From NCBI GenBank assembly GCA_902798705.1, contig CADBXS010000022.1, forward strand, positions 30,544 to 78,893: 48,350 nt of DNA, read 5' to 3'. Under the pieces are notes generated by a model. The model saw only the letters and a program-made list of their open reading frames with translations. It was not told where the DNA came from and did no database searches. Of the stretch, positions 4,833 to 47,877 are shown one piece after another (within the stretch, counting starts at the first letter, position 1; each line of letters opens with the position of its first letter). The stretch comes from an uncultured Bacteroidales bacterium (GTDB lineage Bacteria; Bacteroidota; Bacteroidia; Bacteroidales; Bacteroidaceae). The translations under genes were made by a program, and so were the position numbers.

Positions 4833-4862
4833 AATCAGCTCGCACCACCATGCGGGCTGATT
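4833..4862 (+). terminator. Terminator after the barrel gene
   Basis: Stem AATCAGCtCGCA / TGCGgGCTGATT with a short loop, followed by TTTTCG, 65 bp after the stop codon. It directly precedes the 22-bp-period array that begins at 4872. Confidence 0.7.
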
Positions 4863-4871
4863 TTCGTAAAG

Positions 4872-5113
4872 GGCCATAGTGGATTATCAGAAGCGCATGA
4901 AGGGATTTACTGAGACACTCTTTTGAATCTACTATAGGCGCGAACCTTCGCTATCGCAATGCCGAACGTTCGGCGTTGCGATAGCGAAGGTTCGCCGAAT
5001 CAACGTTGAGCGTTCGGCATTTTAGTTGAATCAAATGAATGATTGGCTTTCGCTGAACTCAAGGTTCAGCACAAACAAAGGAGAGAACCAGTACAATCGA
5101 AGCCTCCCTGTTC
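4872..5113. repeat. 22-bp-period intergenic array, copy 1 (11 units), with 56-bp palindrome
   Basis: Cutting the sequence every 22 bp from 4872 aligns 11 units. Units 1-3 share the GGATTTACTGA word (best in 4894-4915). Units 4-7 share CGAA.GTTCGGC. Units 8-11 carry the inverted flank word (TTGAATCAAATGAATGATT, later CAAAGGAGAGAACCAGT). Inside it, 4940-4995 is a 56-bp palindrome with one mismatched pair (4960/4975). The same three-part plan is at 26091-26332 and 35835-36010. The period is not a multiple of three, so coding is unlikely. This fills most of the 502-bp gap 4768-5269. Confidence 0.75.
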
Positions 5114-5177: not shown

Positions 5178-5209
5178 TTTGGTGGAAACACAAAAAATGT
5201 GTACCTTTG
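5178..5209 (+). promoter_or_regulatory. Promoter of the trpB-like gene
   Basis: TTTG (5178-5181), exactly 20 bp, then TACCTTTG (5202-5209): a full Bacteroidetes -33/-7 pair. Transcription should begin near 5216, leaving a ~54-nt leader. Confidence 0.75.
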
Positions 5210-5269: not shown

Positions 5270-6637
5270 ATGAGCAACAGAACGAAACGCTTCATTCTCC
5301 CAGAATCGGAGATTCCTACACAGTGGTACAACATCCAAGCCGACATGGTGAACAAACCTTTACCTCCACTGAACCCAGCAACCAAAGAGCCTCTGAAGCC
5401 AGAGGACCTGTACCCTATCTTTGCAGAAGAGTTAGCACGCCAAGAATTGAACCAGACCGACGCTTGGATTGACATTCCAGAGCAAGTGAGAGAGATGTAT
5501 AAATACTATCGCTCCACACCACTCGTTCGTGCTTATGGATTGGAGGAAGCTCTCGGCACTCCTGCACACATCTACTTCAAGAACGAAAGTGTGAGCCCAG
5601 TGGGTAGCCACAAGCTGAACTCGGCTCTGCCACAGGCTTACTACAACAAGATGCAGGGTGTGACCAACATTACTACAGAAACAGGTGCTGGCCAATGGGG
5701 TGCTGCACTGAGCTATGCTGCCAAGGTATTTGGATTGGAATGCGCTGTTTATCAGGTGAAGATTTCATACGAACAGAAGCCATATCGTCGCAGCATCATG
5801 CAGACCTTCGGTGCACAGGTCACTCCTTCGCCTTCCATGTCAACCCGCGCAGGAAAGGACATCCTGACTAAATATCCAAATCATCAAGGTTCGCTCGGTA
5901 CTGCCATTTCGGAAGCTATCGAACTGGCCATGACTACACCAAACTGTAAATACACACTCGGTTCGGTACTGAGCCACGTTAGTTTGCACCAGTCGATTAT
6001 CGGTCTTGAGGCTGAAAAGCAGATGCAGATGGCTGGCGAATATCCAGACATGGTGATTGCTTGCTTCGGTGGTGGTTCCAACTTCGGTGGTATCGCATTC
6101 CCATTCATGCGCCACACCATCAAGGAAGGAAAGAAGATTGACTTCGTAGCTGCTGAACCAGCATCTTGCCCTAAGCTCACCCGTGGTGTGTTCCAGTACG
6201 ACTTCGGTGATGAAACAGGTTACACGCCACTGCTCCCTATGTTCACACTCGGCCACAACTTCCGTCCAGCTAACATCCACGCAGGTGGTCTGCGCTATCA
6301 CGGAGCAGGTGTCATCGTCAGCCAGTTGCTGAAGGACGGTTTGATGCGTGCCGTTGACATTCCTCAGCTGGAGACCTTCGAGGCTGGTACACTCTTCGCT
6401 CGTGCTGAAGGTATCATCCCAGCTCCAGAGTCCTGCCACGCCATCGCTGCTACCATCCGCGAGGCTCAGAAGTGCAAGGAAACGGGCGAAGAGAAGGTCA
6501 TCCTCTTCAACCTCTCTGGCCACGGACTCATCGACATGACTGCTTACGACCAGTACTTTGCTGGCGGCTTGCAGAACTATGAGCTCACCGATGCCGACGT
6601 ACAGAAGAACATCGACGAACTCGAGAAGATTATCTAA
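5270..6637 (+). CDS. trpB: TrpB2-type tryptophan synthase beta-like PLP enzyme
   Basis: 455 aa. Tryptophan synthase beta chains join indole with L-serine using pyridoxal phosphate. The PLP lysine motif is visible as SPVGSHKLNSA (around residue 113) and the phosphate-binding loop as CFGGGSNFGG (around residue 262). The N-terminal extension and ~450-residue length fit the TrpB2 ('TrpB-like PLP-dependent enzyme') subgroup rather than the ~400-residue TrpB1. No trpA or other trp gene is nearby, as is common for TrpB2, which can act without TrpA. It may salvage free indole; that role is inferred. It has its own promoter, and KduI follows after 69 bp without a clear terminator, so co-transcription is possible. 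Confidence 0.9.
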   Translation: MSNRTKRFILPESEIPTQWYNIQADMVNKPLPPLNPATKEPLKPEDLYPIFAEELARQELNQTDAWIDIPEQVREMYKYYRSTPLVRAYGLEEALGTPAHIYFKNESVSPVGSHKLNSALPQAYYNKMQGVTNITTETGAGQWGAALSYAAKVFGLECAVYQVKISYEQKPYRRSIMQTFGAQVTPSPSMSTRAGKDILTKYPNHQGSLGTAISEAIELAMTTPNCKYTLGSVLSHVSLHQSIIGLEAEKQMQMAGEYPDMVIACFGGGSNFGGIAFPFMRHTIKEGKKIDFVAAEPASCPKLTRGVFQYDFGDETGYTPLLPMFTLGHNFRPANIHAGGLRYHGAGVIVSQLLKDGLMRAVDIPQLETFEAGTLFARAEGIIPAPESCHAIAATIREAQKCKETGEEKVILFNLSGHGLIDMTAYDQYFAGGLQNYELTDADVQKNIDELEKII

Positions 6638-26090: not shown

Positions 26091-26332
26091 ATTCTCCGGA
26101 TTTCGAGAACTTCTTCTTTGATTTCTCTGAAACGATCCTTTGGATTTACTGAAACAGCGAGGGCTCGACATTAACCCCGCGAAGGTTCGGCAGAACGATG
26201 GCGAAGGCTCGGCAGAACGATGGCGAAGGTTCGGGCAACTAGTTGAAACAAAGGAATGGGTCAGTTAAGACGAAAAAATGAGTCAGTTAAGGCGAAAGAT
26301 TGTTTCAGTTAAACCGAAGAGATGTTTCAAGA
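26091..26332. repeat. 22-bp-period intergenic array, copy 2 (11 units)
   Basis: Eleven consecutive 22-bp units. Three left units carry TTTGGATTTACTGAAAC-like words (26091-26156). Four central units begin GCGAAGGTTCGG or GCGAGGGCTCG (26157-26244); the 26179 and 26201 units differ by one base. Four right units end GTCAGTT/TTTCAGTT (26245-26332). The right unit read in reverse (ACTGAAACAATCTTTCGCC) matches the left word. It fills the 406-bp gap between the winged-helix gene and murI, ending 33 bp from the murI stop. Confidence 0.8.
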
Positions 26333-27190: not shown

Positions 27191-27276
27191 AGAAGTGAAT
27201 CAGGGATTTAAAGGATTTAAAAGGATTTTTTTAAGTGAAACTTCGTTAAACGTTAAACGCTAAACGTTAAACGTTA
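27191..27276. repeat. GGATTTAAA repeat followed by a CGTTAAA heptamer array
   Basis: First TCAGGGATTTAAAGGATTT-type sequence (a third copy of the 13519-13656 repeat), then CGTTAAA at a strict 7-bp period four and a half times (27244-27276). The array reaches into the stop codon of the ompH-like gene. Confidence 0.75.
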
Positions 27277-30856: not shown

Positions 30857-30869
30857 TAAAAAGTTTTTT

Positions 30870-30958
30870 AAAGTTTAAAGTTTAAAGTTTAACGAAGTTA
30901 CACTTCTCAGCTAAAACTCAAAAACTCAAAAACTTAAAAACTCAAAAACTTAAAAAAC
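30870..30958. repeat. AAAGTTT heptamer and AAAACTCA octamer arrays in the sdhA-sdhB gap
   Basis: AAAGTTT three times at a 7-bp period (30870-30890), then AAAACTCA/AAAACTTA five times at an 8-bp period (30913-30952). The second array runs to within six bases of the sdhB start codon and so covers its ribosome-binding region. Confidence 0.8.
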
Positions 30959-35771: not shown

Positions 35772-35834
35772 GGTCGTTGGCGTTGCCATTGGCGTTAGCT
35801 TTTGGCTTCCCTCCCCTTTTGGGGAGCTGGAGGG

Positions 35835-36010
35835 GGCAATTAAGGGATTTACTGAAACGCAACTTTGATTCAACTATATGTGCGAAGGTTCATTAATTCG
35901 ACGATGAACCTTCGCGAGATTTATGCCGAACGTTCGCGAGAAAAACGCCGAGGGTTCGGCATTTTAGTTCAATCAAATGAATGATTCAGTACAATCAAAG
36001 AAGCGAGTTA
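35835..36010. repeat. 22-bp-period intergenic array, copy 3 (8 units)
   Basis: Eight consecutive 22-bp units. Two left units carry GGATTTACTGAA and TTTGATTCAACTA. Four central units carry CGAAGGTTC, GAACCTTCG, CGAACGTTCGC and CGAGGGTTCGGC. Two right units carry AATCAAATGAATGATTCA and TACAATCAAAG. Compared with 4872-5113 the right flank lacks exactly two units (44 bp). Preceded by a TTTTGGGGAGCTGGAGGGGG stretch also seen near 46396. It occupies the 423-bp gap 35772-36194 together with the next promoter. Confidence 0.8.
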
Positions 36011-36130: not shown

Positions 36131-36138
36131 TATCTTTG
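36131..36138 (+). promoter_or_regulatory. Promoter -7 box (TATCTTTG) of the 1071-aa gene
   Basis: TATCTTTGC fits TAnnTTTG, 57 bp before the start codon; the -33 region is T-rich without a clear TTTG. Confidence 0.6.
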
Positions 36139-36194: not shown

Positions 36195-39100
36195 ATGAGA
36201 AAAATCTACATGCTCTTTGCAGGAATGGTTTGCTCAGCAGCAATCCATGCACAGACCACACTTCCTCGCGCGGTCTATACACTCGACTTCGAGGGAGCTA
36301 CCACGGTGGCAGATGTCAAAGGAACTCAAGTGGGTGACGGCGAACTGCGCCAATCCACCGACCCAAACTTCGGTACCTACTACCAGAACGCACCCAATGC
36401 AGCCGTTGCCACCAAGGCAACGAACTACCTCCGCATCGAAACCGACGGACTGAAGAAGGCTGGTGAGAAAGCCACCGACGCCATCTCTATCGGATTCTGG
36501 GTGAACCCAACTGTGGCAAACACCGTATTCCCAAACATCAACTACTACTATTCCGTTCTCTACACCTTCTATACAGCAGGCAATCGTGGACTCACTTCCA
36601 GCGATGGATGGAACGGACCTATGTGGGCACAGAACGCACGCGGATGGCTGCAAATCAACGACTGGGCCGGTCGCTGGGATGACTTCGGCGATGACGAAAA
36701 CGTCAATGCTGCTAACACCATCAACACAGACTGGCTCAAACAACACACGGAAGAGCAAATCGTGCAGGATGCTGAAGGCAACGACTCCATCGCCCTTGTG
36801 CCAACCGACTTCAACGACAACTGGCACTACGTGGCACTCGTCCTCTCGCAGAAAGACAACACCGCCAACATCTACGTGGACGCACAGCTCTTCAACCAGT
36901 GGAACTGCAAGGCCGACTTCTACAGCGACGGTTCTGCTTCCTATTTCTTCAAAAACCTCGGTGGCTATGCTGACCTCTACCTCGGTGGTGTGGCACAGTG
37001 GACTTGGGCTGACCCCGACCCAGCCTTTGCTTACGACGACTTCACCATCTACGCTGGTCCGCTCGACGAAGAACAGCAGCAACTCGTCATGAAAATCAAG
37101 AGCGGCGAAGTGGATGACGACGTTCGCCTTGCATTGGCTCAGAGCGAATTCATCAACGTGATGGACGAATACGAGGAATTCCTTGGCGAACTCGAAGAAT
37201 ACGAGACTCTCTTCGAAGGACTCGAGACCTACGCTACAGGCATTTCCGACGAACTCGACGACAACCCAAGCATCGAAGGATACACTACGGGTGCAGCTAA
37301 CATCCTTGCTCGCATCGAGGAAATCAAGCAGATTGTGTCGGCTTGCAATGCAGCCAAGGCCAACATCGCTGCCGAGAAGGAATATGCCGAAATCACCAAC
37401 TATCCAGGCAAGGACAGCTACATCGAAGCACTCGAAGCAGCACTGGCTAAGCTCGACAACCCAACTTCCGCTGAGGATGCTGAAGCTGCCATCGCAGCCG
37501 TAGCAGCAGCCAAGGGACGCTACGTCACTTCGCAGCCGCTTCCAGAAGATGGCTCAGGCATCAATGTCACAGCCCTCGTGCTCCATCCTTGGTTCTGCAA
37601 TCCTGATGCTGAACCAACCCAGAACGAGGACGGTTCCTACAGTTTCCCTTACGAAACCGACCATGCCTACGCTGTCAACTCCACTCCTTCTGATGCCAAC
37701 GCAACAGGATGGGTGAACGGCAACTCCTTCGTGGTGGATGATGCTCGTGTCAACTGGACAGAAGGACGCATCACATGGAACAACTGGCACAACAAGACCA
37801 CAGTCGGTTCCCTCGATGTTCACCAAGACATCACAGGGCTTCCTGCAGGCTACTACAGCGTTTCTGCCGACTGGATTACCAATGCCGCACCAACCACTCA
37901 GCACACTTACGCAACGGCTAACGGCGTGACCAAGTCATCCACTGTGCTCGACAACCAAGGTTGGGACAGCCAAGTATGGACCACTCTCGCTACCGACAAG
38001 ATTCTTGTAGGCGAAGACGGACAGCTCACCATCGGAGGTGCTTCCACTACCATCGGACAGGCATACGTCGGTTGGTTCTGCGTTACCAACTTCGTGCTCA
38101 CTTACTACGGCACCGACATCGACCTCACTGCCGACCTCCAGTCCAAGCAGGAAGACATAGCCGAACTCGTCTCTACTCTCAACTTCAAGGGCGACGTAGC
38201 AGCTACCAATGCAGCCGTTGAAAGCATCATTGCCAACAACGACACATACAACGCCATCGCTCTCCTTACCGACCTCATCGACAAGACGCAAGGTGTGGCA
38301 GCTACTGAAAACAACTTCATTGCTTCCTTCGAAAGCTTCAACGACGGAATCGTTGGCAAGACAGGTGCAGCTGCAGCAGCACTCAGCAGCGTGAGCCGCA
38401 ACATCGCCGAGGCACTCGAAGCCGACACCACCACCGTGGCAGCTATTCCAGGCTTCCAGTCGCTCATCGACACCTATCGTGCATACGCCGCTGTGGCAGA
38501 AGCAGCACAGGCATGGAACACCGAGTCTGTCAATGCTAAAATCGACGAACACATCGCCATCTTCGCCGACTCCACACCTGATGCCGACGCAGTGAAGGCT
38601 CTCCAGGACGAACTCTCCAACATGATGAAGTCGTCCATCACCGACAAGGTGGCCAGCGAAGACAACCCTCTCGACATCACGGCCTTCCTCGCTAACCCAA
38701 GCTTCACAAACGACAGCTACGCAGGATGGACAGTTGCCAACGGCACACCTGGTAACTACTACTCCGAATGTGAGTTCTACAACACCAATTTCAATATCTA
38801 CCAGATTGTAAGCGGACTGCCAGCAGGCTTCTACCGCTTCGCCGTTCAAGGCTTCTATCGCGACGGCTCTTGCGAAACAGCCTACACCAACGCTACTATG
38901 CTCGATGAAGAGACTGGCGAACCAAGCAATGTGCTCAACGCTAAGCTCTATGCCAACGAAATGCAGAGCGACATCCAGTCGTGGGCAGACTTCAAGCTCA
39001 AGGGTGAGCAGTTCAACGGCTACTGGAGTCCAAACGCAACCGATGAGTCCATCGAAGCAGAAGACGTGCTCTACTTCGCTAACACCATGGAAGCAGCCAA

Positions 39101-47723: not shown

Positions 47724-47877
47724 TTGTGGATGTACTGAACCGCTTTTTGGGGATTGTCAGAAGCAAATTTGGGGACTGACTGAAGCTTTCCTTTAGATTG
47801 GCTACGCCGAGCTGAAGGTTCTGCACGACAGGGCACTCCTTGATATTATTCGCTGAACAGTTACAAGTTCTCAGAAC
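47724..47877. repeat. 22-bp-period intergenic array, copy 4 (divergent, 7 units)
   Basis: Cut at 22 bp, the first three units align as GGATGTACTGAA, GGGATTGTCAGAA and GGGACTGACTGAA. The fourth and fifth carry GATTGGCTACGCCGAG and CTGAAGGTTCTGC, and later units are poorly conserved. The left part clearly belongs to the same family as the other three arrays; the right part is weak. Confidence 0.55.

Follow-up and report, generated by a model that had tools for sequence, protein, structure and literature searches.

The nearest element found in print to the intergenic arrays described here is PINSR of P. intermedia, a 188-bp intergenic 'incomplete repeat' that was judged non-coding and is present in 177 and 184 copies in two strains (PMC4755523). 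According to the part of that report available to us, PINSR belongs to a small group of species, has no terminal inverted repeats and occupies regions of which about three-quarters are common to the strains (sequence records NC_017860/NC_017861; PMC4755523). The arrays resemble PINSR in being intergenic, present in many copies and group-specific, but they differ from it by description, as the same part of the report makes no mention of a 22-bp period, dyads or a four-site core (PMC4755523). The kind of element itself was not described in the open-access literature searched, where PINSR, compared by description only, came nearest; an earlier note on this DNA had known of no named family, and this holds apart from this one possible relative. 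Should PINSR follow the 22-bp four-dyad plan, it would be a member of the kind that has already been published.

REP and BIME elements, like the arrays, are intergenic palindromic repeats that are present in many copies, are lineage-specific and are sometimes arrayed. In the sections of the source seen, REPs are palindromes of 20–40 bp, most with GTAG or CGTC tags, and are tied to RAYT transposases (PMC3733652), whereas the arrays are made of dyads of 10–15 bp in strict register, the core word of the host genome being the 10-bp dyad CGARSSYTCG at 22-bp steps. Plasmid iterons are tandem repeats bound by Rep proteins and resemble the arrays most in the Chlamydia plasmid, which usually has four 22-bp repeats (PMC7143637, seen in part). 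Iterons, however, sit at a single plasmid origin, whereas the arrays are palindromic, have mirrored flanks and lie in many chromosomal gaps; a plasmid iteron is not in keeping with the 49 separate places found in the host sequence examined. Regulators of the octameric Lrp type (BarR, Grp, FL11) have four to five regularly spaced semi-palindromes, putatively bound by one dimer each, and intergenic DNA is reported to be wrapped around the octamer (PMC10201364, PMC2995911). Their operators are control regions of particular genes, and the parts of these papers that were available do not describe an exact 22-bp step or a flank plan (PMC10201364, PMC2995911). Four dyads in line would suit four dimers of one oligomer, which is offered as an analogy with these regulators and not as an identification.

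CRISPR arrays consist of near-identical repeats of 24–48 bp with non-repetitive spacers and cas genes, and do not fit, as the repeated word here is 10 bp and the 12-bp spacers are partly common to copies. MITEs are recognized by terminal inverted repeats, a target-site duplication and sharp ends, and intrinsic terminators by a hairpin followed by a T tract. From the sequence comparisons below, we give about an even chance to the proposal that each array is a DNA-level docking platform between neighbouring transcription units.

The three arrays and their copies in the host clade

The window (the whole stretch of 48,350 nt that was analysed) lies in the genome of the host, a rumen-type bacterium (G000; 3.31 Mb, 82% complete), and contains three arrays of one plan in a single register, made up of flank units, four palindromic core units (CGARSSYTCG) and inverted flank units (Table 1). 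The 22-bp period that the earlier note had read in all three gaps was confirmed, with lag-22 identities of 0.40, 0.58 and 0.42 for arrays 1, 2 and 3 compared to about 0.25 after shuffling. Base shuffles gave means of 0.25–0.26 and reached the observed value in 0, 0 and 1 of 5,000 cases, and the best lag other than 22 in the range 12–39 gave 0.298, 0.330 and 0.307, respectively. Arrays 1–3 are copies of one element, with GGATTTACTGAAAC exact in arrays 2 and 3 and carrying one mismatch in array 1. The three-part plan with inverted right units stood as a plan, with 74% complementary arms that span 38 nt (array 2) and 27 nt (array 3), but no inverted arm pair of that type was listed for array 1. 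Likewise, the 22-bp register held, whereas the counts of 11, 11 and 8 units are only approximate because the outer units are degenerate; copy-to-copy changes in whole units, as the note had proposed, were supported. No Rfam family matched across the window at the gathering threshold, and a Pfam search of the ORF immediately left of array 1 gave no match at E ≤ 0.001. Two boxes are called promoter-like from what we take to be the Bacteroidota consensus.

Table 1. Positions of the arrays and of neighbouring features in the window.
Feature	Position	Strand	Basis
Array 1 in full, a four-dyad core between two flanks (some 11 units of 22 bp)	4872..5113	+	Lag-22 self-identity 0.395; blast matches in own genome
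Array 1 core, dyads CGAACCTTCG, CGAACGTTCG, CGAAGGTTCG, TGAGCGTTCG starting at 4941/4963/4985/5007 (step exactly 22 bp)	4941..5016	+	Letters; PWM core match
Array 2, whole element, core orientation minus strand	26091..26332	-	Lag-22 self-identity 0.577; tandem rows of period 22; minus-strand core match
Array 2 core, CGAGGGCTCG, CGAAGGTTCG, CGAAGGCTCG, CGAAGGTTCG (+ strand letters) starting at 26158/26180/26202/26224 (step exactly 22 bp)	26158..26233	-	Letters; comparison with RUG849 (G011)
Array 3, whole element, about 8 units	35835..36010	+	Lag-22 self-identity 0.422; missing at the matching place in UBA4361 (G002) and RUG849 (G011)
Array 3 core, CGAAGGTTCA, TGAACCTTCG, CGAACGTTCG, CGAGGGTTCG starting at 35883/35905/35927/35949 (step exactly 22 bp)	35883..35958	+	Letters
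Probable core-less remnant or half element, consecutive flank-type units GGATGTACTGAACC, GGGATTGTCAGAAGC, GGACTGACTGAAGC	~47728..47824	+	By eye
Terminator-like hairpin left of array 1 and outside it, 12-nt arms 92% complementary	4833..4862	+	Hairpin read from sequence; role putative
Bacteroidota -7-type promoter-like box TACCTTTG, in the stretch separating array 1 from the PALP gene (5270-6637)	5202..5209	+	Sequence; presumed consensus
Promoter-like box TATCTTTG, between array 3 and the ORF at 36195	36131..36138	+	Sequence; presumed consensus

That the three loci are related was borne out by a blast search with array 1, which gave 66 matches in its own genome, a count taken among the 40 of 99 first-look candidates that were scored and including some self-matches of palindromes to the opposite strand. 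Searching 427 kb of host sequence (the window and 20 stretches) with a 106-bp core profile gave 24 matches and none in the shuffled control, and core profile, blast and pattern loci together gave 49 distinct elements in the examined host sequence. These densities cannot be scaled up, the host stretches coming from contigs already known to carry copies and those of the two clade relatives, Prevotellaceae bacterium UBA4361 (G002; L069) and isolate RUG849 (G011; L070; 89% complete), having been chosen around matches. Counted over whole genomes, the word pair CGARSSYTCG-N12-CGARSSYTCG occurred 216 times in the host, 315 times in UBA4361, 134 times in RUG849, twice in G010 and not at all in nine other congeners, with a reversed control of 0 in all 13 congeneric genomes. 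As a core holds a maximum of three such pairs, the 216 pairs lead us to infer at least about 70 arrays in the host. Three units in a row were detected in four of 399 family genomes (UBA4361, 186; host, 122; RUG849, 70; G093, 1), and the reversed three-unit control gave three matches in one family genome only (G084). The G084 matches are perhaps another private word at 22-bp spacing. Host copies had spacers as well as dyads in common, and their long matches were mostly 68–85% identical. One stretch of UBA4361 (L101, 19558–19744) holds four core units followed by four near-identical flank units (AGTCCCCAATCGCGTTCG) and resembles recent tandem growth.

The register was exact. Centres of the word CGARNNYTCG lay 22 (57 pairs), 44 (33) and 51 bp (1) apart in the fetched host stretches, 22 (42), 44 (26) and 28 bp (1) apart in those of UBA4361 and 22 (11) and 44 bp (6) apart in those of RUG849, so that 175 of the 177 pairs within 60 bp were spaced by 22 or 44 bp and none by 21 or 23. 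The central dinucleotide was GG or CC at 146 of 155 sites in the fetched stretches. With a tolerance of two mismatches, exactly four core dyads were counted in 24/24 arrays of the host stretches, 15/16 of UBA4361 (one had five) and 5/5 of RUG849, or 44/45 combined. In the left flank the word AACTAGTT stood 10 bp before the core in 21 elements and 11 bp before it in 17, and this shift of one base pair was offset by an outer anchor that kept a total of 18 or 40 bp from the core in 29 of 38 elements (five misfits, four unscorable). Among the better-scoring elements, 43 of 44 right-flank words followed the series 23+22k (23, 45, 67, 89 or 111 bp). A coding origin was rejected, in agreement with the earlier note, since 22 is not a multiple of three and no called gene spanned any of the 49 host elements.

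Turnover at orthologous gaps and arrays in other genera

A 22-bp array upstream of the PALP gene was present in four of the ten congeners with a close homologue (host, UBA4361, G008 and G010), and there G008 and G010 each used a word of its own, related neither to that of the host nor to that of the other. In a register-anchored comparison of array 1 between the host and UBA4361, half-site letters of the core were alike at 22 of 24 positions and spacer letters at 12 of 48, the chance level, with fourfold sites of the PALP gene 67% identical. This pattern could alternatively be due to independent arrival or to conversion by another copy. The core of array 2 was identical at 103 of 106 positions between the host and RUG849, with fourfold sites of murI 64% identical, and spacers are therefore not always free, which counts against a docking platform. 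Also counting against it, arrays come and go: neither clade relative had array 3, and RUG849 retained promoter-side sequence. Upstream of the PALP gene of G010 (L182 1338–1360, equal to L214 5452–5474) we observed a short ORF with three consecutive Trp codons (TGGTGGTGG) and then a terminator-like hairpin, a leader that is likely a trp-type attenuator; the region upstream of the PALP gene in G008 (L183) resembles it by eye.

The lag-22 peak that the earlier note had proposed to look for in other intergenic regions was present. Pooled over the non-coding DNA of 16 genomes outside the host clade, lag 22 scored 26 and lag 44 scored 17, with 10 for the next best lag (14). At least one array was seen in 18 of 25 family genomes, a set that includes the host clade. 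The signal was weaker in a second set of 20 family genomes (seven matches at lag 22 compared to six at lag 21, some of which look like simple sequence). Six more distant Bacteroidota and E. coli gave one lag-22 match, and no array was found in 15 genomes of other families of the order, of each of which about 1–20 kb was scanned. In 100 kb of each, the peak was also weak in B. finegoldii (1 at lag 22 vs. 1 at lag 23) and in Parabacteroides (3 vs. 3). One Lrp/AsnC gene is annotated in a Parabacteroides stretch.

Array words differed between genomes (CCAAGCGCTTGG and CACCGCAGTG in G008, CGAAGGCCTTCG in G007, CGACCTAGGTCG in G017, TCACTCGAGTCA in G022), and the G008 word CYAAGNNCTTRG had no match as three units in 61 phylum genomes, a set without G008. 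A 22-bp array of about 12 units in G007 (L148, 15218–15493) has a word that drifts gradually from CATTTTCCGTGCGC to TGTTTATAGTGCATTTGCG. Three sets of observations from these genomes count against the docking platform. G007, G008 and G022 each had several words, and one protein per genome is therefore too simple; runs of five or six sites were found in G007, G008, G015 and G019 and a run of three in G010; and a palindromic unit consensus was significant by column permutation in only 17 of 34 arrays outside the host clade at p < 0.05 (12/34 at p < 0.01), the remaining 17 showing no significant palindrome at p < 0.05. The corresponding figures for the host clade were 15/53 and 10/53, where flanks blur the consensus.

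Two further genera were read locus by locus. G093 had 214 pairs of GGTGTACACC, allowing up to one mismatch, with four core units at eight of nine loci and three at the ninth. Flank words of CGAGCGCTCG type were seen by eye on both sides of the core at all nine loci, and under a strict in-register test flanks were on both sides at 6/9 and on one side only at 3/9, where the other flank was apparently shifted, a further point against the docking platform. In G015, of a third genus, 95 pairs of ACTAACGTTAGT were counted when three mismatches were tolerated, and the elements consist of six units between A and T runs, with a length of 125–126 nt at 9 of 15 loci in a strict test. A 400-kb sample of the cultured Prevotella sp. 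oral taxon 299 F0039 (eight stretches of NC_022111.1, a 1.77-Mb record filed as a plasmid) gave 32 arrays at lag 22, 23 at lag 44, nine at lag 66 and three or fewer at any other lag. Its word AAAAGCAATGCTTTT formed 22-bp runs of three (6), four (25), five (10) and six sites (1), with counts of 0, 0, 2 and 0 at lags 20, 21, 23 and 24, and scaling up suggests about 190 arrays. In Bacteroides finegoldii each of the two arrays read, out of 10 places in its records, had four sites of CACGGCCGTG type spaced by 22 bp, and an eleventh place was in Parabacteroides distasonis, of a different family. Phocaeicola massiliensis had an array at 63 places in 28 records, all of its own species in a collection with few records of that species, with four TACAGTC/TACGGTC units in 4/4 arrays read. 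By eye, flank units carried on the register on both sides in these last two species. The 22-bp spacing is common to genera, whereas each species or small group has site letters of its own; as far as sequence can tell, this hints at a protein platform.

The privacy of these families would also suit selfish interspersed repeats, in which a copied element spreads through gaps, each lineage having its own family, and the register reflects the enzyme that copies or binds the element and is of no use to the host. This reading, which we consider unlikely, is favoured by the shared spacers and dyads of host copies, by presence and absence at orthologous places and by the restriction of the families, the GGTGTACACC pairs of G093 being found in none of 16 congeners and the Phocaeicola array only in P. 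massiliensis records. The ends of the elements, however, are uneven in steps of whole units, and inspection of copies by eye showed neither a target duplication nor a terminal repeat. The Y1 transposase family of the REP/RAYT system (PF01797) had no match in the host or in RUG849, genomes whose incompleteness allows for a missed gene, with one match in UBA4361 and a presence in 7 of 13 genomes of the genus. The PALP gap is occupied in two congeners (G008 and G010) as in the host, with unrelated words, and copying alone does not explain why unrelated families have the register and usually four sites in common. A purely mutational origin, in which slippage or template switching in replication hairpins yields 22-bp palindromic tandems free of selection, appears very improbable. 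Whole-unit gain and loss and the spacer mosaics seen by eye in G093 are what it would produce, yet spacers vary from unit to unit while their length stays exact, different words share one register within single arrays (G093, G007), and slippage gives no reason for 22 in many genera or for four core copies.

Gene setting, possible RNA hairpins and a proposed docking platform

The earlier note placed all arrays just 3' of a gene, and this was not borne out as a rule. The 49 host copies were in 28 co-directional, 10 divergent and six convergent gaps, with the neighbour undetermined for five; our own gene caller is crude (43 genes called in 50 kb of E. coli vs. 49 annotated CDS), and the divergent count may be too high owing to genes that it missed. 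A convergent-gap rule found no support in the host clade (46 convergent gaps held 8 arrays and 300 other gaps held 38, p = 0.36), and genomes outside it did lean convergent (8 per 32 vs. 15 per 220, p = 0.004). A fixed orientation relative to genes was not supported, the host elements being split 17 vs. 11 with no clear bias. Promoter-like TAnnTTTG boxes within 350 bp of the 49 host elements pointed away from the element 32 times and towards it four times on the right side, and 22 and six times, respectively, on the left. As these boxes mostly point away and, by eye, a distinct terminator-like hairpin parts the gene from the array at several loci, the host arrays probably sit mostly between transcripts and would be little transcribed themselves.

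The same hairpins bear on a second reading, in which the arrays are giant bidirectional terminators or RNA hairpins, with units pairing across the array and flanking A/T tracts releasing polymerase on either side. Folding supports this in part. Arrays 1 and 3 folded strongly (z -8.7/-7.8 and -4.9/-6.2), and z was below -3 in 38/49 elements of the host, 12/16 of UBA4361, 9/9 of G093 and 15/15 of G015 compared to 5/40 other host intergenic pieces. Palindromic words, however, fold automatically, as any row of palindromes would; array 2 had no fold (z +0.4 and +1.1) and five of 49 host elements had z above -1. The symmetric centre showed no covariation (host, 38 elements and 43 pairs, z 1.1; G015, 11 elements and 49 pairs, z 1.0), a result qualified by small local signals (z 5.2 over 13 pairs), and neighbouring GG/CC centres in UBA4361 combined at random (12, 11, 10 and 9). 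The tracts divide the genera. In G015 an A-run on the left and a T-run on the right flanked 11 aligned elements, which had been chosen with at least AA and TT at their ends, and nine of 15 loci passed the stricter A4...T4 test; in G093 the cores had A4 on the left at 9/9 loci and T4 on the right at 8/9. Both neighbours could be called at 11 G015 loci, seven of which are convergent, and a giant bidirectional terminator fits the genera of G015 and G093. The host cores, in contrast, had no such tracts (A4 left 0/49, T4 right 14/49), their divergent gaps hold elements, hairpins separate from the array are already in place at several loci by eye, and stems with 12-nt loops need no exact 22-bp spacing. 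The RNA hairpins that the earlier note had offered as one of two guesses find some support in the folding of arrays 1 and 3 and the tracts of two genera, and none in array 2, covariation or centres. Because of the fold, covariation, centre and tract results taken together, we hold the RNA reading to be unlikely and favour the DNA platform.

A binding platform for a protein contacting one face was the better of the note's two guesses, and the strict register of two turns argues for it. Also in its favour are the usual number of four dyads, the half-site letters that stay alike at the PALP gap where spacers differ, the use of that gap by unrelated words in G008 and G010, and the absence of called genes across the 49 host elements. 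In the docking platform proposed here, four identical protein dimers would sit on the four palindromes, and because the centres are exactly 22 bp apart (about two turns) all four would lie on nearly the same helix face. The four dimers would probably form one closed oligomer (an octamer), with about 88 bp of DNA wrapped or bent around it, and additional dimers, whether of this protein or of another, would extend the complex over the flank units, which have a polarity mirrored about the core. Such complexes, at an estimated 70–200 gaps per genome, may anchor the nucleoid in an architectural or insulating role.

A broader version is possible but doubtful, namely a common Bacteroidales chromatin element in which an octamer-sized protein wraps four phased dyads with mirrored flanks at about 70–200 gaps per genome and the DNA code and its reader change together from species to species. 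If this is true, architecture and sometimes position would be conserved without sequence, a bacterial counterpart of fast-evolving satellite/reader pairs. Homology searches would be blind to an element with private letters and conserved spacing, which may explain why it was overlooked even in cultured Bacteroides and Phocaeicola. A protein platform would mean that a major lineage of the gut and rumen has a so far unrecognized protein that organises its DNA by a species-specific code readable from the genome, and would make nucleoid boundaries, repeat spread and binding-site turnover testable in cultured strains.

Other repeats in mobile DNA and near the arrays

Array 1 had no match among 72,556 plasmid records, and the Phocaeicola array had none in the phage collection. 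Two GC-rich IMG/VR contigs matched the three-unit pattern. The match in L235 (4594–4907) was rejected, being an 11-bp tandem of GAGGGCTCGTC that fits the pattern because 22 is twice 11. The other, a viral contig (L236, 6887–6940), has three tandem 22-bp units with CGAACCTTCG, and no flanks.

A second interspersed intergenic repeat of CTCCCCTTTTGGGGGAGCTGGAGGGGGC type, with GCCATTGGCGTTAGCTTT, adjoins several arrays by eye (window ~35780–35840; L003, L011 and L098). The window also has tandem repeats of 7 and 8 bp (CGTTAAA, TTTAAAG and AAAACTCA) at 27244–27276, 30867–30892 and 30913–30956. Lag 14 was also strong in the non-coding DNA of the host (25) and was the strongest lag in UBA4361 (33).
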